In this document: positions 6,258-31,490 of the stretch, piece after piece
Layout of the letters: the number at the start of each line of letters is the position of its first letter
Position numbering within the stretch: the first letter of the stretch is position 1
DNA from: Persephonella sp.
GTDB taxonomy: Bacteria > Aquificota > Aquificia > Aquificales > Hydrogenothermaceae
Length of the DNA stretch: 41,475 nucleotides
Assembly: GCA_003978565.1 (NCBI GenBank)
Contig: QNZC01000049.1
Coordinates: forward strand, 1 to 41,475
Direction of reading: 5' to 3'
The notes under the pieces: generated by a model
Told to the model about the DNA's origin: nothing
The model's database searches: none
The model's input: the letters and a program-made list of their open reading frames with translations, nothing else
Program-made: the position numbers and the translations under genes

Positions 6258-8688
6258 ATGTTTGAGAAATTTACAGAAAGGGCAAGAAGAGTAATATTAA
6301 GGGCAAGAGAAATTGCCAATGAATATAGAAACAATTACTTAGGAAGTGAACATCTTCTCTTATCTTTATTAGAGTTAGAAGATATACCAGTTTTAGTTTT
6401 ATCTAGATTTGGTTTAACAGTTGATAAAGTTAAGAAAAGTTTAACATCCCAAATGTCTAAGGGAAATTATAGCGGAGAAATATTATTTGCTCCTGATGCT
6501 AAAAGAGTTTTAGAAAATGCAGTAGAGGAAAGTAAAATACTCCATCATCAGATAGTGGGACCAGAGCATATTTTTATAGGGATAATCAGAGAAAAATCTG
6601 GATTAGGAGGAAGAGTTTTAAGGGGCTTTGGTATAGATGAATACTCCGTCAGAAGGGAGATTTTACAGATATTAGGTGAGATACCTCCACAGGAGAAATT
6701 TAAACAAGTTCCAACTCCAAATATAGATAGATACGGCAGAGATTTAACAGCTTTAGCTAGGGAAGGGAAACTTGACCCTGTTATAGGTAGGGAAAGGGAA
6801 ATAGAGAGGGTTATTCAAATACTCTCAAGAAGAAGAAAGAATAACCCTGTTCTTATAGGAGAACCCGGTGTTGGTAAAACTTCTATTGTTGAAGGATTAG
6901 CACAGAGAATAGCTGAAGGGAAGGTTCCTGAAAATTTACAACAGAAGAGAATTGTTGCATTAGATTTAACTGCATTGGTAGCTGGAACAAAGTATAGAGG
7001 ACAGTTTGAAGAGAGAATTAAAAATATACTTAAAGAGTTAGAAAAAGCTCCTTACATAATTCTGTTTATAGATGAATTACACACACTTGTGGGAGCAGGT
7101 TCAGCTGAAGGTTCTTTAGATGCTTCAAATATGTTAAAGCCTGCTTTAGCTAGAGGTGAGATACAGGTTATAGGAGCTACAACTTTAGATGAGTATAGAA
7201 AACATATAGAAAAGGATGGAGCTTTAGAGAGAAGATTTCAACCTGTGTTAGTTGACCAACCGTCTCCAGAGGACACTGTAAAAATATTAAACGGCTTGAA
7301 GAAAAAGTTTGAAGATTTTCACGAGGTAGAGTATACGAAGGAAGCAATAGAAAAAGCAGTAGAATACTCAACAAAATACATCACTGATAGATATTTACCT
7401 GACAAAGCAGTTGATTTAATAGATGAGGCTGGTGCTTTAGTAAGAATTAGAGAGATGGAATTACCTCCTAAACTTAAAAAGTTAGAAAAACAGATTGAAA
7501 AGTTAGAAAAAGAAAAGGCAGAGGCCGTTAAGGAACAGGATTACGAAAAAGCTGCCGAATTGAGAGATAAGGAATTAAGATTGAGAGCTAAATATGAAAC
7601 TCAAAAGGCAGAATGGAGAGAGAAGAGAAAAGAGAAAAAACCTAAAGTTAAATCTGATGATATAGCACAGGTAGTTTCAAGATGGACAGGAATACCTGTA
7701 GCTAGACTTACAGAAACAGACGCACATAAGCTTTTAAAAATAGAGGAAGAATTACATAAGAGAGTTGTTGACCAAGATGAGGCTATAAAAACTATAGCTA
7801 AAGCTATAAGAAGAAACAGTGTAGGATTAAAAGGAAGACATAGACCAATAGGAGTTTTCCTATTTTTAGGACCTACAGGTGTTGGGAAAACTGAAACTGC
7901 AAAGGCATTAGCAGAATATCTATTTGGAACAGAGGACGCTTTAATAAGATTTGATATGTCTGAGTATATGGAAAAGTTTTCTGCTTCCAGATTAGTAGGA
8001 GCACCTCCCGGATATGTTGGATATGAGGAAGGTGGACAGTTAACAGAGACAGTTAGAAGGAAACCTTACTCTGTGATACTCTTTGATGAGATAGAAAAGG
8101 CACACCCAGATGTCTTTAACATGTTCTTGCAAATATTTGACGATGGAAGATTAACAGACAGTTTAGGAAGAACTGTTGATTTCAGTAATACGATAATAAT
8201 AATGACATCTAACCTTGGTGCTAGACTTATAACAGAAAGTAATAAAATGGGGTTTGAAACTAAAAAGGGGATGATAGATTATGAAGATATGAAGAAAAAT
8301 GTTTTAAGAGAAGTAAAAAGACATTTTACACCAGAATTTTTAAATAGATTAGACGATGTTATAGTATTTAAGCCTCTAGACAGAGATGTTATAAAGGGTA
8401 TAATTGATATTCAATTGAAGGAAATAAATGAAAGGCTGAAAGAATGGGGAATTACATTAAAGCTTTCCAAAAAGTTTGTAGATTACTTAATAGACAAAGA
8501 ATACAAACCGGAATATGGTACAATCACTTGTGGAAGACTTACTAGCAGAAGAAATATTGAAGGGCAAAATAAAGGAAGGTTCTACAGTGGAAATAACCGT
8601 AAAGAGAGATGGCAAAGTTGCATTAAAAGTGAAAAAAGAAAAAAAAGCAAACAAAAAGGAAAAAGAGGAAGCACTTTCTACAAAATAG
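6258..8688 (+). CDS. clpC: ClpC-type AAA+ unfoldase, frameshifted near its 3' end
   Basis: This is a ClpC/ClpA-class Hsp100 chaperone that feeds substrates to the ClpP protease. It shows an N-terminal repeat domain (1-145), D1 with Walker A G-E-P-G-V-G-K-T (201-208), a middle region with a UVR motif (about 420-465), and D2 with Walker A G-P-T-G-V-G-K-T (538-545). After E-Y-G (about 8517-8525) the frame shifts. The ORF continues into bamA, while the expected ClpC tail ([17 protein letters not shown] onward) is in another frame and ends at TAG 8686-8688. A normal ClpC has G-A-R-P-L-K-R-A-I-Q at this point. Loss of 23 bases would explain both the missing residues and the shift. The repaired protein would be 817 aa, a normal length. 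If the lesion is real, D2 lacks its sensor-2 Arg and is probably inactive. Confidence 0.9.
8520..8531 (+). other. Junction of an apparent 23-base deletion in clpC
   Basis: In the clpC frame the translation reads E-Y-G and then T-I-T-C-G-R. Reading CAA at 8527 in another frame restores [11 protein letters not shown]. The eight codons expected between (A-R-P-L-K-R-A-I) are missing apart from one base, which gives a 23-base loss. That shift is exactly the one that puts downstream DNA into the bamA frame, creating an uninterrupted ORF from 6258 to 11054 (1598 codons). Confidence 0.8.
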
Positions 8689-11054
8689 ATAATAAATTTC
8701 TTTTATATTCTTTTCTCTTCTCTATTTTAATTCTTCTTCAAGAAAAATCTTTAGCTGAAGAAAATGATTTCTCAAGAAATCAATCTTTAATAAATACAGA
8801 ACAGGAAGACCAAAAGGTTTACAGACTAAAAAGTATAAAGTTCGCAGGTTTAAAGTATATAAAGCCAGAGATAATTAAACCGTTAATACCATTCGGTAAA
8901 GGAGCAATAATAACTAGAGATACTTTAGTTAACACAATAAGGGATTTGTATAAACTTGGTTATTTTAAAGATATAGAAACTTATGCGAACTTTACTGAGA
9001 ATGGAGTTGATTTAATATTTGTGTTTAAAGAGTTGCCAGTTGTCCAAAAAATAGACTTTGTAGGAAATGAGGAAGTAGATAGTGAAGAGCTACTTAAATA
9101 TCTAGGAATATCCACAAAACAGAGACAGGAAACATCTACATTTCTTCCATTTATGACAATAGGTCCAGAGCTTGCTGAGAAATTAGCATCCATAAAAAAG
9201 GGACTAGGTAGAGTTTTCTCTCCAGATGAAATAGAGAGAATGAAAAAAATTATACAAAAGGTCTATGAGAAAAAAGGTTTTTATAACGTAAAAGTTGATT
9301 ACCATTTTAAAGGAAATATTTTAGTTTTTGATATAAAGGAAGGAACTCAAGCTTATGTTTATAAAATAAGAATAGTCGGAAATAAACAGATGGAAACAGA
9401 TGAAATATTAGATGTAATGGAAACTAAAGAGAGGTGTCTATGGTGCTTCAGATGGCATCCATCTCTAGAAAAGGATACTCTTCTGGACGACATAGAGAGA
9501 ATAAGAGAACTTTATATAGACAAAGGTTTCTTTGATGTAGATATTTCCAAACCTAAAATAGAGTTAAAAAATGGCGAGGAGTATTATATAACGATATATA
9601 TAAAGGAAGGGGAAAGGTATAAGCTCTCATCAATAGATATAGAGGGGAATGATTTATTTACAAGGAGAGAGTTATTTGAAGATTTAAAAGAAAAACCTGA
9701 AATTGGAAAGTATTACAATGGTAAGGTTATAAAAGCCTTAAAGAAAAATATAGCAGAGAAATACACAGACCTAGGATTTGTCTTTACAAGAGTTTACACT
9801 CAAAAGATTAAAAATAAAGAAAAAAAGGAAGTAAAAGTTAAATTTCTAATAGAAAAAGGGGAAAGATATTATACAGATTTAATAGGTATTTCAGGAAATT
9901 ATGAAAGTAGAGATGAAACTATAAGAAGAGAATTAAGACTTGCACCTGGAGACCTTTTTGTAAAAAGATTGATAAAAAAATCCCAATCTAGACTAATGAG
10001 ATTAGGTTTTTACAATTCAGTTAATTTAGAACCTCAATTTAAAGATATTGGATTGCTAGATGTAGATGCTAAAGTTTCAGAAAGATTTACAGGACAGCTT
10101 TCAATAGGATTGGGATACAGTCAGTTTACAGGTTTATCTGTTTTTGGTTCAGTAAAGAAGGGAAACTTTAGGGGAACCGGAGATACACTTTCAGCATCTA
10201 TAAGTGTAGGGACAAGGTATAAGAACAACCAAGTAGGTTATATACACAGATGGGCTTTTTATAAACCGATAGATTTAGGTTTTAATGTGTTTCAAAGGGA
10301 TTTAGATTATTACTCATTTACATCTAAAAAAGTTGGTGGAGATATTACTGCTTCATACGAGTTTTGGGATATATGGAAAGCAGGTTTAACAGTTGGATAC
10401 CAGAGAGTTAAATATCAAGATATTTCCGATACTGCTCCATTGAGAATAAAGGAACAGGCAGGTAGCTACTCCCTACCATACATAGGAAGCTATATAAATA
10501 GATATACATTTGATAACTTCTTGCTTCCCACAGAGGGAACTGATACAACTTTATCTTTTAAAATAGGATTTGGAGATAGAGGTTTTTATAAGTATAACTT
10601 TACATATTCCTTGGCTTTACCAGACAAAATATTCCATACAGATTGGATTTTTAACTTCAAATTCAGATATGGAGAAGTTATAAAAAACGGAAGTAAGATA
10701 CCTCTAGATGAACTTTTCTTTGTAGGTGGTGATTTTACTATAAGGGGATTTGATTATGGTATGGCAGGTTCATTTGATGACAATCTAGACCCTATAGGGA
10801 ACAAAAAGGAGATAATTTTAAACTATCAGTTAAATCATCCAATTACAGACTTCCTATGGGGATATGTCTTTTTAGACCAAGGTAAAGGATTTAATACTGG
10901 AAGTCCATTTAAAGATATGTATTACTCCATTGGTGTAGGTATAAAAGTGATAACTCCTATAGCTCCAATAGACATTTATTATGGAGAGGTGCAAAATCCA
11001 CCTGAAAATGTGGGAAGCAGTAGATTAGGATTTATTTTAGGAACTTTCTTTTAA
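8685..11054 (+). CDS. bamA: Outer membrane protein assembly factor BamA (Omp85)
   Basis: BamA is the core of the BAM machine that folds beta-barrels into the outer membrane. It shows a signal-peptide-like stretch (F-L-L-Y-S-F-L-F-S-I-L-I-L-L then S-L-A), several POTRA repeats (about 8820-10080) and a C-terminal 16-strand-type barrel with the Omp85 R-G-F motif (Arg about residue 687) and a C-terminal Phe. From 8685 the protein is 789 residues, normal for the family. The start is uncertain: no ATG, GTG or TTG exists in frame ahead of the signal peptide. The ATA at 8685 overlaps the clpC stop as ATAG and has GAGGAA at 8665-8670, so I use it provisionally. As sequenced, the frame is also continuous with clpC. 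Confidence 0.9.
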   Translation: MDNKFLLYSFLFSILILLQEKSLAEENDFSRNQSLINTEQEDQKVYRLKSIKFAGLKYIKPEIIKPLIPFGKGAIITRDTLVNTIRDLYKLGYFKDIETYANFTENGVDLIFVFKELPVVQKIDFVGNEEVDSEELLKYLGISTKQRQETSTFLPFMTIGPELAEKLASIKKGLGRVFSPDEIERMKKIIQKVYEKKGFYNVKVDYHFKGNILVFDIKEGTQAYVYKIRIVGNKQMETDEILDVMETKERCLWCFRWHPSLEKDTLLDDIERIRELYIDKGFFDVDISKPKIELKNGEEYYITIYIKEGERYKLSSIDIEGNDLFTRRELFEDLKEKPEIGKYYNGKVIKALKKNIAEKYTDLGFVFTRVYTQKIKNKEKKEVKVKFLIEKGERYYTDLIGISGNYESRDETIRRELRLAPGDLFVKRLIKKSQSRLMRLGFYNSVNLEPQFKDIGLLDVDAKVSERFTGQLSIGLGYSQFTGLSVFGSVKKGNFRGTGDTLSASISVGTRYKNNQVGYIHRWAFYKPIDLGFNVFQRDLDYYSFTSKKVGGDITASYEFWDIWKAGLTVGYQRVKYQDISDTAPLRIKEQAGSYSLPYIGSYINRYTFDNFLLPTEGTDTTLSFKIGFGDRGFYKYNFTYSLALPDKIFHTDWIFNFKFRYGEVIKNGSKIPLDELFFVGGDFTIRGFDYGMAGSFDDNLDPIGNKKEIILNYQLNHPITDFLWGYVFLDQGKGFNTGSPFKDMYYSIGVGIKVITPIAPIDIYYGEVQNPPENVGSSRLGFILGTFF

Positions 11055-23151: not shown

Positions 23152-24294
23152 ATGATAAAAAAAGTTTCTTTTTCTATATTTGATACAGGTGAAACAATCT
23201 TAGGAGCAATAGTTTTTTCCGTTTTCTTCCCATTGTATATAACTAAATATATATCTGTGGAAACTTTTACCTTTTTCTATGGCATCGTATTTTTAATATC
23301 ATTTATTATTTCATTACAACTTGGGAAGATTGCAGATGAAAGAAATTTAAGAAAGGGATTTTTTACTTTTTTTACAGTATCTATCTTTCTTTTAACATTA
23401 CTATTAGCTATCGTATCAAATAACTATATTTTATCCTTGTTGATTTTCTTTTTACTTGCTATTACACATCAACAAAACCTAGTCTTTTATAATTCTTTAC
23501 TTACAGATTTTAAAGAAAAAGGTTTCATATCTGGATTAGGTGTAAGTTTAGGTTATATAGGGTCTGCTATTGCATTAATGTTTTTTGCTCAATATTTGGA
23601 AATTCCATATGTGTATATTTTCACAGCTTTAGTATTTATGTTATTAGCTTTACCATCTATTCTTTTTATTGAAAATCCAAATATAAAACCTAAAAAGATA
23701 AACTTAAAGGTAATTTTTTCAGATAAAGAATTTTTACTTATTATTTTATCAATTTTGTTTTTAACAGAAATAGCCAATACTTTAATATCTTTAATGGGTG
23801 TTTATCTCAAGGAAGTTTACAAACTTGAGGACACGGAAATATATAAAGTTATAGGATTTTCATCGGTAGGTGGAATAGTTGGTGGTATAATATGGGGATA
23901 TTTAACAAAGTTTTTTGATATAAAAAATCTTTTTGTTGTTGGCTTTATATTTTGGTTTTCATTCCTGATAATTCTTCCATTTACTCCTAAAGATTTTCTG
24001 CTCGTAGTAGGATTATTTGCAGGTTTCTCATTATCACATTTATGGACAACGTCTAGAGTTTTAATAATAGAGGTTTTTCCTAAAAATGAAGTTTCTACAA
24101 GATTATCATTTCTGTCAATTACAGAGAGAATTTCCTCAAGTTTAGGTTTAATGGTGTGGTCATTCTTACTAACTTTAACAAAAAGTTATCAGTTAACTGT
24201 GCTTTTAATGAGTGTATTTGTAGTTATAGGGTGGCTAATATTTGTATTTAGAAATAAATTAAGTTTGTTATTAATTAAGGAAAAAGGAGTTTAG
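23152..24294 (+). CDS. MFS permease, UMF1-like
   Basis: An integral membrane protein of 380 residues with about 11-12 hydrophobic segments. The loop with G-K-I-A-D-E-R-N-L-R-K-G between segments 2 and 3 is the MFS A-type signature, and the overall pattern fits the UMF1 (ultra-high-MW/Atg22-like) group of the major facilitator superfamily. The substrate is unknown. A GAGAGGGGAG ribosome site precedes ATG 23152. It ends two bases before the V4R gene, so the two are one transcription unit, divergent from murD across 94 bases. Confidence 0.82.
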   Translation: MIKKVSFSIFDTGETILGAIVFSVFFPLYITKYISVETFTFFYGIVFLISFIISLQLGKIADERNLRKGFFTFFTVSIFLLTLLLAIVSNNYILSLLIFFLLAITHQQNLVFYNSLLTDFKEKGFISGLGVSLGYIGSAIALMFFAQYLEIPYVYIFTALVFMLLALPSILFIENPNIKPKKINLKVIFSDKEFLLIILSILFLTEIANTLISLMGVYLKEVYKLEDTEIYKVIGFSSVGGIVGGIIWGYLTKFFDIKNLFVVGFIFWFSFLIILPFTPKDFLLVVGLFAGFSLSHLWTTSRVLIIEVFPKNEVSTRLSFLSITERISSSLGLMVWSFLLTLTKSYQLTVLLMSVFVVIGWLIFVFRNKLSLLLIKEKGV

Positions 24295-24296
24295 CC

Positions 24297-24794
24297 ATGA
24301 CTAGGAAAGATGATGATATTATAAACAAAATTTCAAAAGTAGATAGAAAAAAATTGGGAAGTGATATTCCAATAGAGATATTTAGAGTTTTCAGACATTT
24401 CTCTCAAATTTATGCAGAAGACTTACTTGGAAAAAAGGCCACAGGTATATTGTTTATTAATGCTGGAAAAGAACTAGGTAAAAATATTGGCAAAAAACTG
24501 TATGATAAAGATTTGGAAAAGTATATAAAAAATGTTAAGGAGTTTGTAGAAAAGGAAAAGATTGGCATTTTAAAAGTTGTTGAGGCATCTAACAAAAAAT
24601 TGGTGTTTCAGCTAGATGAGTGTATCACATGTGCTGGAATGGATAATATAGGAAAGAGAATTTGTTTCTTTGAAGTCGGTTTTGTTGCAGGTGTGGTCGA
24701 GGTCTTCCTCGGTAAAAAGGTGATAGCTGAAGAAACAAAATGTAATGCTAATGGGGAAGGAGTTTGTGAGGTAAGTGTATATCTAAATAAGTGA
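24297..24794 (+). CDS. V4R-domain small-molecule-binding protein
   Basis: The C-terminal two thirds of this 165-residue protein match the V4R (4-vinyl reductase) domain. The protein has L-D-E-C-I-T-C-A-G, then I-C-F-F-E-V-G-F-V-A-G-V-V-E, and T-K-C-N-A-N-G-E-G-V-C-E at the end; the conserved Cys residues probably bind zinc or another metal. V4R domains bind hydrophobic small molecules, often as sensors or in bacteriochlorophyll synthesis; a stand-alone copy in a non-phototroph suggests sensing or carrier function. It starts two bases after the permease. Its last 12 bases overlap the end of the ylxQ gene on the opposite strand. Confidence 0.85.
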   Translation: MTRKDDDIINKISKVDRKKLGSDIPIEIFRVFRHFSQIYAEDLLGKKATGILFINAGKELGKNIGKKLYDKDLEKYIKNVKEFVEKEKIGILKVVEASNKKLVFQLDECITCAGMDNIGKRICFFEVGFVAGVVEVFLGKKVIAEETKCNANGEGVCEVSVYLNK

Positions 24795-27202: not shown

Positions 27203-27208
27203 TATAAT
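27203..27208 (+). promoter_or_regulatory. Probable -10 of the PqqD / ATP-grasp / decarboxylase cassette
   Basis: A perfect TATAAT lies 33 bases ahead of the PqqD-like ATG, giving a leader of about 27 bases that includes the AAAGG ribosome site. A TTCAAT at 27175-27180 is the nearest -35-like element but sits too far away (22 bases). Confidence 0.45.
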
Positions 27209-27241: not shown

Positions 27242-27478
27242 ATGAATAGATTACATCAGTTAGCCGTAAATGATGAAGGGTTTATATTTGACCCTTTAAC
27301 AGGAGAGAGTTTTACAGTTAATAGAACTGGACTGTTTATAATTAACAGATTAAAAGAAGGAAAAAAAGAGGAAGAAATACTACAGGGATTACTTGATGAA
27401 TTTAATGTTTCTAAAGAGGTTGCCGAGAGAGACTTAATAGATTTTTTAGAGAAGTTAAAAAGCTATAGAATTATTTAG
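27242..27478 (+). CDS. PqqD-like protein (stand-alone RRE fold)
   Basis: A 78-residue protein with the PqqD pattern: a short beta-hairpin region (D-E-G-F-I-F-D-P-L-T-G-E-S-F-T-V-N) followed by helices with T-G-L-F-I-I-N-R-L-K-E-G and a C-terminal helix L-I-D-F-L-E-K-L-K. PqqD-type domains (RiPP recognition elements) bind leader peptides and present them to modifying enzymes. Here no radical SAM or lasso enzymes are adjacent; instead an ATP-grasp enzyme starts 38 bases later and a PLP decarboxylase follows. The decarboxylase has a leader-like N-terminus, which could be the binding partner. The fold is called from sequence pattern; the partner is inference. Confidence 0.8.
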   Translation: MNRLHQLAVNDEGFIFDPLTGESFTVNRTGLFIINRLKEGKKEEEILQGLLDEFNVSKEVAERDLIDFLEKLKSYRII

Positions 27479-27516
27479 TTGGTAAGCTTGTTTTTACTAA
27501 CCAGAGAGGTGAAAGA

Positions 27517-28557
27517 ATGGAATTAAAAATAGGAATATCTGGAATAAATGCTGTTGACAATCCGGGACCGGGAGTTGGTGTTGCAAAAAGTATAAAAGAA
27601 GATAGGGAGCTATCGGCTAAAATAGTTGGTTTGTCCTACGATGCTATGGAACCCGGAAACTATATGAAATGGATTATTGATAAATCTTATATTCTTCCGT
27701 ATCCATCTACAGACCATAAAACATATTTAAACAGACTTTACTATATAAGGGAAAATTATGGGCTTGATTTTGTGTTGCCTGTATTAGATGCAGAACTACC
27801 ACTCTATCTTAAATATCAAAAAGAGTTAGAAAAAAACGGTATAAAAACTTTTTTACCTACATTAGAACAGTTTAAATTAAGAGGAAAAGATAAACTAGAA
27901 GAGGTAGCTAAAAACATAGGTATAGAAACTCCTAAATCTGAGGTTGTAAATTCCTACGATGAGTTAGTGAAAGCTGTTGAAAAACTTGGGCTTCCTGTAA
28001 TGGTAAAGGGAGTTTTTTATAAGGCATACAGAGCTTACACAGTTCAAGAGGCAGTAAGTTTCTTTAATAAAATAGTTGCTGAATGGGGTTATCCTGTTAT
28101 TTTACAGCAGGTAGTTTCTGGAGAGGAGATGAATGTTGTTGCCGCTGGAGATGGTGAAGGGAACTCTTTAGGAATGATAGCAATCAAAAAAATGTGGATA
28201 ACAGAGCTTGGAAAAATATGGACTGGTATAACTATTAAAAATGAGGAGTTGTTAAATTCAGCTAAAAGGTTTATAGAAATTTACGGTTGGAAGGGAGCTT
28301 TTGAGCTTGAATGTATAGTTGATTTGAATAACAACAAAATCTATTTAATAGAGATAAATCCTAGATTTCCAGCGTGGTCTTACTTCTCAACTGGAGTTGG
28401 TGTCAACATAGCATCAAATATAGTTAGAAAGGCTTTTGATTTACCAGTAAAGGAGTATAGAGACTATCCTGCAGGGAAACTCTATATAAGATATACAGAT
28501 GACTTTGTTGTTGGTATAGAAACTTTTCAAAAATTAATAACTTTAGGAGAAAATTAG
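27517..28557 (+). CDS. ATP-grasp carboxylate-amine ligase-like enzyme
   Basis: The protein has 346 residues. The N-terminus (1-115) is a pre-ATP-grasp-like domain starting with I-G-I-S-G-I-N. The ATP-grasp domain follows, with V-M-V-K-G-V-F-Y-K-A-Y (ATP-binding Lys), I-L-Q-Q-V-V-S-G-E-E-M-N-V (hinge region) and F-E-L-E-C-I-V-D...Y-L-I-E-I-N-P-R-F-P-A-W, the acidic metal site seen in carbamoyl-phosphate-synthase-like ATP-grasp enzymes. Such enzymes activate a carboxylate as acyl phosphate and join it to an amine. The substrate is unknown. AGAGAGGTG precedes the ATG. It lies one base before the decarboxylase gene, so the two are tightly coupled. Confidence 0.85.
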   Translation: MELKIGISGINAVDNPGPGVGVAKSIKEDRELSAKIVGLSYDAMEPGNYMKWIIDKSYILPYPSTDHKTYLNRLYYIRENYGLDFVLPVLDAELPLYLKYQKELEKNGIKTFLPTLEQFKLRGKDKLEEVAKNIGIETPKSEVVNSYDELVKAVEKLGLPVMVKGVFYKAYRAYTVQEAVSFFNKIVAEWGYPVILQQVVSGEEMNVVAAGDGEGNSLGMIAIKKMWITELGKIWTGITIKNEELLNSAKRFIEIYGWKGAFELECIVDLNNNKIYLIEINPRFPAWSYFSTGVGVNIASNIVRKAFDLPVKEYRDYPAGKLYIRYTDDFVVGIETFQKLITLGEN

Positions 28558-28558
28558 G

Positions 28559-29911
28559 ATGAAGAAAGTATATGAAAAACCGGTTATAGTGAAAGTTGAA
28601 ACAGGGTTTATGAATAAGTTCGGAGAAAGTCCTTTATATCAGAGAAAAGTGAGAACAGATATAGACGGGGTTTCTATCGATGAGCTTGTGAAAAAGTATG
28701 GCTCACCTTTATTTGTAATATCAGAGAAAAAATTAAGGGAAAAATACAGGAATATATATAATGCATTTGCTTCAAGATACCCAAATGTCCAGTTTGGCTG
28801 GTCTTATAAAACAAACTATCTAAAGGCGGTATGTGCTGTTTTACATCAAGAGGGAGCTATAGCTGAAGTTGTTTCTGGGTTTGAGTATGAGAAAGCTAGA
28901 AAATTAGGAATTGAAGGTAAAGATATTATATTTAACGGTCCACATAAAAGACTAGAAGATTTAGAGATAGCTGTTAAGGAAGGTGCAAAGATACATATAG
29001 ACCATTTTGACGAGATAATTGATTTAGAAAAAGTTGCTGATAAGTTAGGAAAAACTGTAAAGGTGGCAATTAGATTAAATATGGATACTGGAATAAGACC
29101 TCAATGGTCTAGGTTTGGTTTCAATTTAGAAACTGGACAGGCTTTAGATGCAGTTAAAAGAATAGCTCAAAGTGGAAAATTAATATTAAACGGATTACAT
29201 GCTCATATAGGAACTTTCATATTAGACCCTAACGCATACGCTAAAGAAGTAGAAAAGATGGTTAAATTTGCCTACGAAATAGAGGATAACTTCGGATTTA
29301 AGATAGAATATATAGATATAGGCGGAGGACTACCATCTAAGAATAAACTGAAGGGAACATACTTACCACCTGATATAGCTGTTCCACCTGTTGATGAGTA
29401 TGCTGAAAAGATAATAGATGCTCTATACTCAAACTTAAGACCGGGAGATTTTCCTAAATTAATACTTGAAACAGGTAGAGCAATAGTAGATGAAGCTGAA
29501 TACTTAATAACAACAGTATTTGCATCTAAAAGGCTACCTGATGGAAGAAAAGCCTATATATGTGATGCAGGGGTAAATCTGCTATTTACTGCTTTTTGGT
29601 ATAAGTTTAATGTTGAGATAGACAGGGAAGTTTACGGAGTTAATGAGCCTTCTGTCCTTTATGGACCTTTATGTATGAATATAGACATTATAGATGATGG
29701 AATACTTCTTCCTCCTTTAGAAAGGGGAACGAGACTTATATTCTCTCCAGTGGGAGCTTACAATAATACCCAGTGGATGCAATTTATAGAGTATAGACCT
29801 AATATAGTTATGATTATGGAAGACGGAACAGTTGAGGTTGTAAGGGAAAGAGAGGATTTAACAGATATTGAGAGAAGAGAGAGGCTACCAGAAAAGTTAA
29901 AAATTAGATAA
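28559..29911 (+). CDS. LysA-fold PLP-dependent decarboxylase with a leader-like N-terminal extension
   Basis: A fold-type III PLP enzyme of 450 residues, related to diaminopimelate decarboxylase. It keeps the PLP lysine (W-S-Y-K-T-N, K84), H-A-H-I-G-T, the phosphate loop D-I-G-G-G-L-P, E-T-G-R and V-G-A-Y-N. It lacks the LysA C-E-S-x-D substrate motif; the equivalent segment is G-P-L-C-M-N-I-D. It is therefore probably not LysA, and a different amino acid or amino-acid adduct is likely the substrate. The first 25 residues precede the enzyme domain and read M-K-K-V-Y-E-K-P-V-I...G-F-M-N-K-F-G, similar to the Tyr-x-x-Pro-x-Leu...Gly leaders bound by PqqD-like proteins. It ends 15 bases inside the 3' end of the L,D-transpeptidase gene. 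Confidence 0.85.
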   Translation: MKKVYEKPVIVKVETGFMNKFGESPLYQRKVRTDIDGVSIDELVKKYGSPLFVISEKKLREKYRNIYNAFASRYPNVQFGWSYKTNYLKAVCAVLHQEGAIAEVVSGFEYEKARKLGIEGKDIIFNGPHKRLEDLEIAVKEGAKIHIDHFDEIIDLEKVADKLGKTVKVAIRLNMDTGIRPQWSRFGFNLETGQALDAVKRIAQSGKLILNGLHAHIGTFILDPNAYAKEVEKMVKFAYEIEDNFGFKIEYIDIGGGLPSKNKLKGTYLPPDIAVPPVDEYAEKIIDALYSNLRPGDFPKLILETGRAIVDEAEYLITTVFASKRLPDGRKAYICDAGVNLLFTAFWYKFNVEIDREVYGVNEPSVLYGPLCMNIDIIDDGILLPPLERGTRLIFSPVGAYNNTQWMQFIEYRPNIVMIMEDGTVEVVREREDLTDIERRERLPEKLKIR

Positions 29912-30994
29912 AGGTATATTTTCCTCTCCAATAATTCTAAATTTACCATCTTCCTCCTTTACATATAAAATCTTTTTTTCCCTTATCTTCCTTTTATCTG
30001 AAAAATACTCAAAATTGAATGCGATAACAAAAATATCTCCAAATAACATAATTCTTCCATACTTAAGAATAGATAGATTTGTAAACATATACTTTTTGTT
30101 TTTATCATTTTTTAGTTTCTCATACTTTTCTTTAATGTATTTAAATTTATTTCCTACTTTAGAAACAAATTTCGGAGAATATAAAAAATACATCTTTATA
30201 GGATTTCCATTAATTGCAGATTTAAAACCTTTCTTCCATTCCATAAAGAAGTTTAACAATCTTTTTTGATACTTATCAAAGCTTTCTCTGTCTATGAACT
30301 CATAATCCTCCGTTATAACTACAGGAGTGTCCTTTATCTTTATATACTTTTTCAGTATAAGAAAATCAGGTTCCTTCATTATTACGCAACCTTTAGAGGA
30401 ATATTTAGAGATATAACTATACCTATCAGATGAATGAAGCCATATTCCTCCTCCCGTTTTTTTAAAAAAGTATCTATCTAAAACATTTGGGTAATTTAAA
30501 GGGAAAGCCCCTGAACCATAAACTTTAGGTAAACCTGTTTTATAGTAAAGGGGAAAATACACTCCATCTGGGGTTTTTTTATCTCCCTTTTCCCACTTAT
30601 TACCTGCCTTCTCACCAGATGTCATTTGATATCTTCTTGCTATAATTGGATGTTTGTTAAAAAATTCCACTAAAACGATTTCTTGTTTAGCTTTACTAAC
30701 TACTAAAACTTTTTTTCTGTCTTCTCTATATATGGTGTTAAAAAGATATTTTTTTTTAGTTTTTTTTAATCTTTGCAGATAATTTAACAATTTTTTAGCT
30801 TTTTTCTTTTCTCCTTCCATTAAATATAAAATTATTTCTAGTTTTAATCTCTCTTTACTATCTAGTTTTCTAGCAAGCCCGTAAGCGGTCTCTAAATCTC
30901 CATTTTCTATTGCATAGATAACACTTTTTAAACTAACTCCGTAAGATATACCAAAGAAAAATAAAAAAACAAAAAGAAATATCTTAAAATTCAT
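29897..30994 (-). CDS. Secreted L,D-transpeptidase (YkuD) with NTF2-like C-terminal domain
   Basis: Residues 1-19 form a signal peptide (M-N-F-K-I-F-L-F-V-F-L-F-F-F-G-I-S-Y-G), followed by a short helical region and the YkuD domain with G-I-W-L-H-S-S-D and S-K-G-C-V-I-M. These supply the His and the catalytic Cys that cross-link peptidoglycan or trim stems. The C-terminal part (about 245-365) resembles the NTF2-like domain of Csd6-type enzymes, which act as carboxypeptidases and set cell shape in Helicobacter. I choose ATG 30994 (365 aa): the longer start at 31069 would overlap bcp and bury the signal peptide. It lies seven bases after bcp. Confidence 0.88.
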   Translation of the reverse strand: MNFKIFLFVFLFFFGISYGVSLKSVIYAIENGDLETAYGLARKLDSKERLKLEIILYLMEGEKKKAKKLLNYLQRLKKTKKKYLFNTIYREDRKKVLVVSKAKQEIVLVEFFNKHPIIARRYQMTSGEKAGNKWEKGDKKTPDGVYFPLYYKTGLPKVYGSGAFPLNYPNVLDRYFFKKTGGGIWLHSSDRYSYISKYSSKGCVIMKEPDFLILKKYIKIKDTPVVITEDYEFIDRESFDKYQKRLLNFFMEWKKGFKSAINGNPIKMYFLYSPKFVSKVGNKFKYIKEKYEKLKNDKNKKYMFTNLSILKYGRIMLFGDIFVIAFNFEYFSDKRKIREKKILYVKEEDGKFRIIGEENIPLSNF

Positions 30995-31001
30995 AAACCT
31001 A

Positions 31002-31490
31002 TTATTTGTTTTCCAATATCTTGTTAAGTGTTTCAACAACCTTTGGAACATGTCCTTTAGCCCTAACATTTCTCCATTTCTTAATTATATTTCCTTCTGG
31101 AGAGATAATATAAGTTGACCTTATAACACCTTTAGTTATTTTTCCATAACTTTTTTTCTCTCCGTAAGCATCATACTGCTCTAAAACATTTTTATCTGGG
31201 TCTGATAGTAAGTAGAAGTTTAAGTTATACTTCTCTTTAAACTTTTTATGGCTTTCTATACTGTCAGGGCTAACTCCAATAACTATAGCTTTATCTGATA
31301 ATATGTTCAGATTGTCTCTGAAATCACATGCTTCAGTTGTGCAACCGGGAGTGTTATCTTTTGGATAGAAGTATAAAATTATATACATTCCTTTATTTAA
31401 TAGCTCTTTTAAACATATTTCCTTTTCTTCCCCCTCTGGTGTTAATCCCATTAAACAGAAATCTGGAGCTTTCATACCCTCTTCTACCAT
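31002..31490 (-). CDS. bcp: Peroxiredoxin of the Bcp/PrxQ type
   Basis: A thiol peroxidase of 162 residues that removes hydroperoxides, usually with thioredoxin as reductant. The motif Y-P-K-D-N-T-P-G-C-T-T-E-A-C-D-F-R gives the peroxidatic C50 and resolving C55 in the C-x4-C spacing of the Bcp/PrxQ subgroup. S-T-Y-I-I-S-P-E-G-N-I is a typical C-terminal block. ATG 31490 is preceded by GGAGG. It is probably co-transcribed with the downstream L,D-transpeptidase. Confidence 0.95.
   Translation of the reverse strand: MVEEGMKAPDFCLMGLTPEGEEKEICLKELLNKGMYIILYFYPKDNTPGCTTEACDFRDNLNILSDKAIVIGVSPDSIESHKKFKEKYNLNFYLLSDPDKNVLEQYDAYGEKKSYGKITKGVIRSTYIISPEGNIIKKWRNVRAKGHVPKVVETLNKILENK

Follow-up and report, generated by a model that had tools for sequence, protein, structure and literature searches.

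We describe a compact gene cassette in a 41,475-nucleotide stretch of DNA from Persephonella sp., a heat-loving bacterium (contig QNZC01000049.1; the whole stretch is called the window below). Its three genes code for a small PqqD-like protein, an ATP-grasp ligase and a pyridoxal phosphate (PLP)-dependent decarboxylase of the alanine racemase fold. The PqqD-like protein is of the kind known as RRE, the recognition element of ribosomally synthesized and post-translationally modified peptides (RiPPs). In this conserved RRE family, which spans many phyla by record title, no peptide was found in the cassette loci, and the matching recognition sequence sits on an enzyme, at the N-terminus of the decarboxylase. 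Our best explanation, which taken as a whole we judge to be probable by a modest measure, is that the three genes form the cytoplasmic core of an undescribed, mostly six-gene system that is mobile or has been lost repeatedly.

Conservation of the cassette and its downstream genes

The original prediction of three tightly packed genes holds, as the open reading frames (ORFs) lie exactly where it had placed them, on one strand and with intergenic gaps of 38 and 1 base, and Pfam and NCBIfam uphold its assignment of a PqqD-like protein, an ATP-grasp enzyme and a LysA-fold decarboxylase. It had also proposed a neighborhood search across phyla. Scanning 84,980 species genomes with only the aligned ATP-grasp proteins as the query gave 115 relatives, and 80 loci were kept. 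The PqqD gene lies upstream of the ligase gene in 76 of these loci, the decarboxylase gene lies downstream of it in 72, and all three are found together in 70. Because the trio recurs in 70 of 80 loci that were gathered with the ATP-grasp protein alone, its arrangement is far beyond chance. By record title the loci come from Aquificota, Thermodesulfobacteriota, Ignavibacteria/Kapabacteria, Calditrichota, Gemmatimonadota, Verrucomicrobiota, Planctomycetota, Cyanobacteria and more, a phylum count that is inexact since some titles are plainly wrong ("Klebsiella" for L079 among Verrucomicrobia-labelled loci, "gammaproteobacterium" for L115). The trio is present in such named isolates as Thermodesulfobacterium hydrogeniphilum (L100), Thermodesulfatator autotrophicus (L105) and Brasilonema bromeliae (L121).

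Several individual loci deserve mention. Those titled Klebsiella pneumoniae (L079) and Akkermansia (L089) are closely similar and of verrucomicrobial type, their titles disagreeing with their closest relatives, and the match titled gammaproteobacterium (L115) is an Aquificales contig. In a divergent cassette, L145 (1759-3923), the PqqD gene and the gene of the tailed decarboxylase are separated by two ATP-grasp genes in tandem, both about 35% identical to the Thermodesulfobacterium ligase. In Marinobacterium jannaschii (L106), the PqqD and ATP-grasp pair is kept with an apparently shortened tetratricopeptide repeat (TPR) gene alongside, and in Oscillatoriales USR001 (L120) the ATP-grasp gene is found without a neighboring PqqD gene.

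The cassette is much larger than the original prediction could see. In relatives, the usual gene order is RRE, ATP-grasp, tailed decarboxylase, UT-M23, a beta-barrel-like protein and a TPR protein. The UT-M23 protein of about 690 residues combines a urea-transporter domain (PF03253, 215 bits) with a Peptidase_M23 domain and is present in 48 of the 51 loci that have the decarboxylase gene and more than 4.2 kb of downstream sequence. Where more than 6.2 kb are available, the TPR gene is found in 41 of 47 loci and the barrel gene in 34 of 47. The barrel-like protein of about 300 residues has no Pfam match and reads like an outer-membrane barrel. In a Nitrospinia-labelled locus (L064), a ThiF/MoeB-like E1-type protein replaces UT-M23 after the decarboxylase, at an offset of about +2569 from the ATP-grasp ORF. 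The genome that the window comes from (1.12 Mb, 69% complete) carries the UT-M23 gene on contig C46, with the barrel and TPR genes sharing contig C35. Hence, the earlier statement that no protease or exporter is adjacent is true of this genome only, whereas its relatives have the UT/M23-peptidase gene directly downstream.

The genes are also present and absent together. Among 61 order-level relatives, the ligase is found in 18 and the decarboxylase in the identical 18, and among 198 genomes from the phylum of Thermodesulfobacterium both occur in the identical 10. In the order-level set, the RRE profile finds the same 18 genomes plus G034, where the RRE lies at a contig end, and G038. The UT-M23 protein is shared by all 18; beyond them it is found in G050 alone and, as a fragment at a contig end, in G036. 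The UT-M23 fusion thereby gains a putative context, as in the relatives surveyed it is found almost only in cassette genomes. In family f3, the cassette genes are dispersed yet retained as a set; in G040, the RRE, ligase, decarboxylase, UT-M23 and TPR genes are on contigs C8, C20, C12, C7 and C22, respectively. In G038 (locus L021), the PqqD gene is intact, the ATP-grasp gene is broken by stops, the decarboxylase gene is absent, UT-M23 is reduced to a 79-residue UT fragment and the TPR match is marginal (8.5e-5). This genome has lost its cassette genes together, and its cassette is decaying.

The decarboxylase tail and the PqqD-like protein

The decarboxylase starts with a tail of the consensus M-K-K-x-Y-E-K-P-V-I-x-K-L-x-x-G-x-M-N-K-F-G, where position 13 is Leu or Val. 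The tail precedes the start of the alignment with solved homologs, all of which align only from about residue 24. Residues 1-30 have a per-residue confidence (pLDDT) of 40-53 in the AlphaFold model, which rises to about 95 at residue 31 and beyond. Residues 5-22 are nevertheless on a par with the body of the protein in conservation, their mean entropy being 1.01 bits and that of the body 0.95 bits, with 1.94 bits for residues 23-30. In an alignment of 48 sequences, Tyr5 and Pro8 never vary and Ile10 reaches at least 90%, but this set and a larger one of 62 sequences were picked with a Y..P pattern, so that the invariance of Tyr5 and Pro8 is partly built in. An unfiltered listing of the loci has the same tail start in nearly every locus. 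In the set of 62, the NKFG motif has Asn in 60, Lys in 59, Phe or Tyr in 59 and Gly in 58. Even in loci with a ligase no more than 35-44% identical to the Thermodesulfobacterium one, the tail motif is retained, as YEKPFITRHHGGIINKFG, YEKPILVKYQNGWSDKFG and YEKPTIVRNLLKSVNKYAG show. Such a segment, predicted to be disordered yet constrained, has the look of a docking peptide, and the tail may well be one.

The YEKPVI segment of the tail fits the motif [Y/W]xxPx[L/V/I/F/A] that is recognized by discrete lasso RREs (PMC13381572), and the PqqD-like protein resembles these RREs. It matches the PqqD-type winged-helix profile (PF05402), and a profile of 30 family members run against the Protein Data Bank (PDB) returned TfuB1 (1e-10) and TbiB1 (2.2e-9) as the best matches, with PqqD of the pyrroloquinoline quinone (PQQ) pathway at 0.0025. 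In LppB, Asp70 forms a hydrogen bond with the leader Tyr and Asn33 holds the kink at Pro, the N33A mutation almost abolishing binding (PMC13381572). In a sequence alignment via PbaB1 (9x90), with an offset of 15 counted by hand, these residues map to Asp64 (Asp in 29 of 30 members) and Asn27 (Asn in 28 of 30) of the PqqD-like protein. Conservation extends to the cleft residues Ile33, Phe68, Leu72 and Leu77. Most likely, the PqqD-like protein grips the decarboxylase tail rather than a separate peptide.

A search of the cassette loci for small ORFs with the tail motif gave nothing beyond pieces of the decarboxylase and chance matches. The tail profile found the decarboxylase only in nine tail-bearing whole genomes, the next matches having E-values of about 0.05 or more. 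An encoded precursor with a leader was thus found by neither route, and we rejected a lasso, graspetide or other RiPP locus for want of one. Lasso cyclase and leader peptidase are not among the recurrent cassette neighbors (UT-M23, barrel and TPR); whole genomes were not profile-searched for them. A known leader family was likewise rejected for the tail, which has no match in NCBIfam and only sub-threshold ones to DUF5972 in Pfam (0.025 and 0.059). The sole match of a PDB profile search with the tail is a chance one, in PRP22. The three genes had been predicted to act as one pathway in which the PqqD protein presents a carrier or substrate to the ligase and the decarboxylase. That they belong to one system is borne out by their conserved proximity and by the identical distribution of the ligase and decarboxylase; a separate carrier is not, as the motif is on the decarboxylase and no precursor was found.

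The tail could serve other ends. The main rival, although we hold it to be unlikely, makes the tail itself a built-in carrier or substrate. The RRE would present it to the ligase for the attachment of an amino acid or acyl group, for instance at Lys20 of NKFG, and the decarboxylase's own active site would decarboxylate the load in the manner of a swinging arm. NKFG equals the RRE motif in conservation, the tail is predicted to be flexible, L145 has two tandem ligases, and the amino acid on which BtrK acts is bound to a carrier (PMC7857480). However, no tail residue offers known carrier chemistry, and Lys20 is missing in L071 (NT), L078 (NP) and L118/L119 (LREKK). As it is missing in a few members, Lys20 is not an obligatory attachment site everywhere.

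Slightly less probable still is a true RiPP pathway with a precursor encoded elsewhere, whose leader the tail would mimic so that the enzyme and the precursor share the RRE. RRE domains are a RiPP hallmark and the tail motif is of the lasso type, but the loci contain no small ORF with the motif and the tail profile points to nothing but the decarboxylase in the nine genomes. We give a little less credence again to a structural or regulatory extension unrelated to PqqD, with the trio making a dedicated metabolite by ordinary diffusion of intermediates. Enzymes can have conserved N-terminal arms; here, though, solved homologs align only after most of the tail, which is predicted to be disordered in the monomer, and its motif is precisely of the kind recognized by the class of RRE whose gene lies two genes upstream and whose binding residues are conserved.

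The decarboxylase pocket and the proposed pathway

The classification of the decarboxylase rests on model scores, a fold search and pocket residues. Its nearest solved relative by both sequence and fold is the N-citrylornithine decarboxylase FigC (7kh2, Foldseek TM-score 0.82). The enzyme has the fold of the alanine-racemase-type PLP decarboxylases, with the PLP lysine Lys84 and the catalytic Cys372 in 48 of 48 sequences, and Arg307, which is invariant, is kept with the rest of the catalytic set. Its scores are below the cut-offs of both the LysA model TIGR01048 (224.8 bits against 297.9) and the FigC/FslC model NF041039 for N-citrylornithine decarboxylases (236.6 bits against 500). In LysA, an Arg binds the second carboxylate of diaminopimelate (DAP) and an acidic residue follows the catalytic Cys (PMC7857480). 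In the cassette enzyme, the position of the DAP-specific Arg is Thr344 in 48 of 48 sequences and that of the acidic residue is Met373 in 47 of 48, while the citrate-binding R387 and H357 of FigC correspond to Gln405 and Ile375. Because both the DAP-type and the FigC citrate residues are replaced, neither DAP nor a citryl conjugate is a likely substrate. The invariant Trp347 and Gln408 are found in the region of the replaced residues. The partner in the substrate may be neutral and amide-like.

The FigC group, which includes SbnH, AcsE, MccE and BtrK, acts on conjugated amino acids and is thought to serve specialized metabolites (PMC7857480). Hence, the earlier argument from LysA-type decarboxylation of D-amino-acid centers need not apply, as the cassette enzyme resembles the conjugate-acting FigC/FslC and BtrK. 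The genome of the window has one other decarboxylase, 28% identical, on contig C3, where an enoyl-reductase-like gene (fabI) follows it. It carries the DAP-type motifs NDLIRP and CETGD, by which it is the genome's separate LysA, and the cassette decarboxylase is not LysA; the genome thus does not lack another lysA, a lack that, joined to a grouping of the decarboxylase with proven LysA, had been named in advance as refuting the idea of the cassette. Nor do the three genes stand apart in relatives, the other outcome that had been named so. We rejected as very improbable a second DAP, ornithine, lysine or arginine decarboxylase for lysine or polyamine synthesis, which would share the fold and has the LysA score in its favor, since that score is below the cut-off, a DAP-type LysA is present on C3, and the DAP-specific Arg and the acidic residue beside Cys are replaced throughout.

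The active site of the ligase is intact, with the ATP/Mg residues Lys124, Lys164, Glu265, Glu279, Asn281 and Arg283 of the ATP-grasp fold in 46 of 46 sequences. It belongs to the PRK12767/CPSase-like group by sequence, and its AlphaFold model (pLDDT 90) is CPSase-like in fold, with 2pn1 as the best Foldseek match.

We lean towards a pathway in which the RRE is a scaffold for ligation followed by decarboxylation, giving an envelope-linked product. The discrete RRE would take up the YEKPxI tail in its cleft as one more beta-strand, as the lasso B1 proteins do with leaders, and this contact would couple the decarboxylase to the ATP-grasp ligase. The ligase would activate a carboxylate as an acyl phosphate and join it to an amino acid, and the decarboxylase would then strip the alpha-carboxylate of the conjugate, as FigC, SbnH, AcsE, MccE and BtrK do on theirs. 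The resulting amine-ended product would be passed on directly within the complex, and the membrane UT/M23 protein and the envelope proteins would move it outward or use it at the cell wall. Gene content and order, joint presence and absence, and the conserved tail and binding residues are read directly from the genomes; from them we infer the contact between the RRE and the tail, the order of the reactions and the export. To a wider formulation we give an even chance: a widespread, precursor-free RRE pathway, in which the recognition sequence has moved onto an enzyme, the RRE acts as an enzyme-enzyme coupler or as a loader of a built-in carrier tail, and the ligate-then-decarboxylate route feeds a UT/M23-barrel-TPR machine for export or remodelling of the envelope.

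Several points weigh against the scaffolded pathway. The RRE may bind the tail merely to regulate the decarboxylase, and similarity to FigC does not give the substrate of the latter. Shared operon inheritance inflates the co-occurrence statistic, except in genomes with scattered genes. The genome of the window has its UT-M23, barrel and TPR genes on contigs other than that of the cassette. Marinobacterium jannaschii and Oscillatoriales USR001 have kept the ligase, with the cassette decarboxylase absent from the genome; we regard these copies as decaying or repurposed. Finally, a precursor peptide could be too short or too divergent for our searches.

Comparison with known systems and features of the window

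The lasso RREs TfuB1/FusB1, TbiB1 and PbaB1 and LppB share with the cassette a common fold family, the Asn and Asp residues and the YxxPx[L/V/I] motif. Here, however, the motif sits on a 450-residue decarboxylase, and no precursor, lasso cyclase or leader peptidase is found next to the cassette. In butirosin synthesis, BtrJ is an ATP-grasp ligase and the carrier is a phosphopantetheine protein. Like the enzyme proposed here, BtrK of the BtrJ/BtrI/BtrK set decarboxylates a conjugate, carrier-bound glutamate (PMC7857480), but the butirosin system is not known to have an RRE and BtrK is only the 35th Foldseek match of the cassette decarboxylase. Rhizoferrin synthesis by FigA/FigC (FslA/FslC) likewise consists of an ATP-dependent ligation and then the action of an alanine-racemase-fold decarboxylase on the conjugate (PMC7857480). 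FigA, however, is a nonribosomal-peptide-synthetase-independent siderophore (NIS) synthetase and not an ATP-grasp enzyme, the citrate residues of FigC are replaced in the cassette enzyme, no RRE is described there, and the FigC alignment starts only after the cassette tail.

In the daptide pathway (MpaB/MpaC), an RRE also brings a substrate to a decarboxylating enzyme, but this is an oxidative decarboxylase of another kind, which acts on the C-terminal Thr of a precursor, and the core set named includes no ATP-grasp protein (PMC10036551). Graspetide systems likewise have an ATP-grasp ligase in a peptide-recognition setting, whereas the one in the cassette is CPSase-like by sequence and fold and no precursor was found; a survey of graspetides names PqqD twice but not any decarboxylase (PMC8939145). 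The PqqD protein of the window passes the cut-off of the HPr-rel-A PqqD model TIGR04353 (40.5 bits against 35). The HprK_rel_A kinase (TIGR04352) is above its cut-off in none of nine cassette genomes, and membership in the HPr-rel-A system was rejected on this ground.

A description of a system of this composition was not found in the openly accessible literature searched, outside which most subscription journals and preprints fall. The original prediction had likewise known of none that was characterized, and neither the RRE surveys nor the graspetide survey nor the daptide paper mention a cassette of this kind. By the defining features examined, the cassette does not qualify as a RiPP, lasso, HPr-rel-A, LysA or citrylornithine system, and we regard it as a new system whose protein families are known ones. 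RREs serve as a class-independent marker in RiPP genome mining, and a match is usually taken to imply a peptide. If our reading of this RRE family is true, the role of RREs is wider and automatic RiPP calls need caution. Aquificota, Thermodesulfobacteriota, cyanobacteria and other lineages would also have a new pathway, for which a decarboxylated conjugate is a prediction that chemistry can test.

Table 1. Positions of the cassette genes and their candidate functional elements in the window.
Feature	Position	Strand	Remarks
PqqD-like RRE gene	27242..27478	+	78 aa; PF05402 1.9e-15
ATP-grasp ligase gene	27517..28557	+	346 aa; CPSase-like (PRK12767 group)
PLP-dependent alanine-racemase-fold decarboxylase gene	28559..29911	+	450 aa; PF02784 7.9e-34 and PF00278
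Decarboxylase N-terminal tail, residues 1-30	28559..28648	+	leader-like, predicted disordered, conserved
YEKPVI, candidate RRE recognition motif (YxxPx[L/V/I])	28571..28588	+	Y and P invariant in 48 sequences (picked with a Y..P pattern); I10 at least 90%
NKFG, second conserved tail motif	28613..28624	+	tally of 62 sequences
PqqD Asn27 codon	27320..27322	+	aligned to LppB Asn33; Asn in 28/30 members
PqqD Asp64 codon	27431..27433	+	aligned to LppB Asp70; Asp in 29/30 members
TATAAT hexamer, possible -10 element	27203..27208	+	sequence only; weak

The three genes had been placed behind one TATAAT. The hexamer is present, but its role as a promoter is not established: the promoter scan gave no sigma-70-like pair that includes it, and such pairs were no more frequent than in shuffled sequences. 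Each of the three genes is preceded by a purine-rich Shine-Dalgarno-like stretch. An Rfam scan of the window gave nothing useful, and there is no tRNA within it. Convergent with the decarboxylase gene is one for a YkuD L,D-transpeptidase (29897-31069), and the two overlap at their 3' ends by 15 bases (29897-29911).

Elsewhere in the window, a single ORF of 1598 residues (6258-11054) contains ClpC-type AAA domains and POTRA/Omp85 (BamA) domains. Its ClpC C-terminus turns into basic nonsense after '...EYKPEYG', and the ORF looks like a clpC frameshift, either real or an assembly error, that runs into bamA, with no true fusion. Also of note is a V4R-domain protein with partial similarity to DUF2507 (24297-24794), encoded directly behind an MFS transporter gene (23152-24294).

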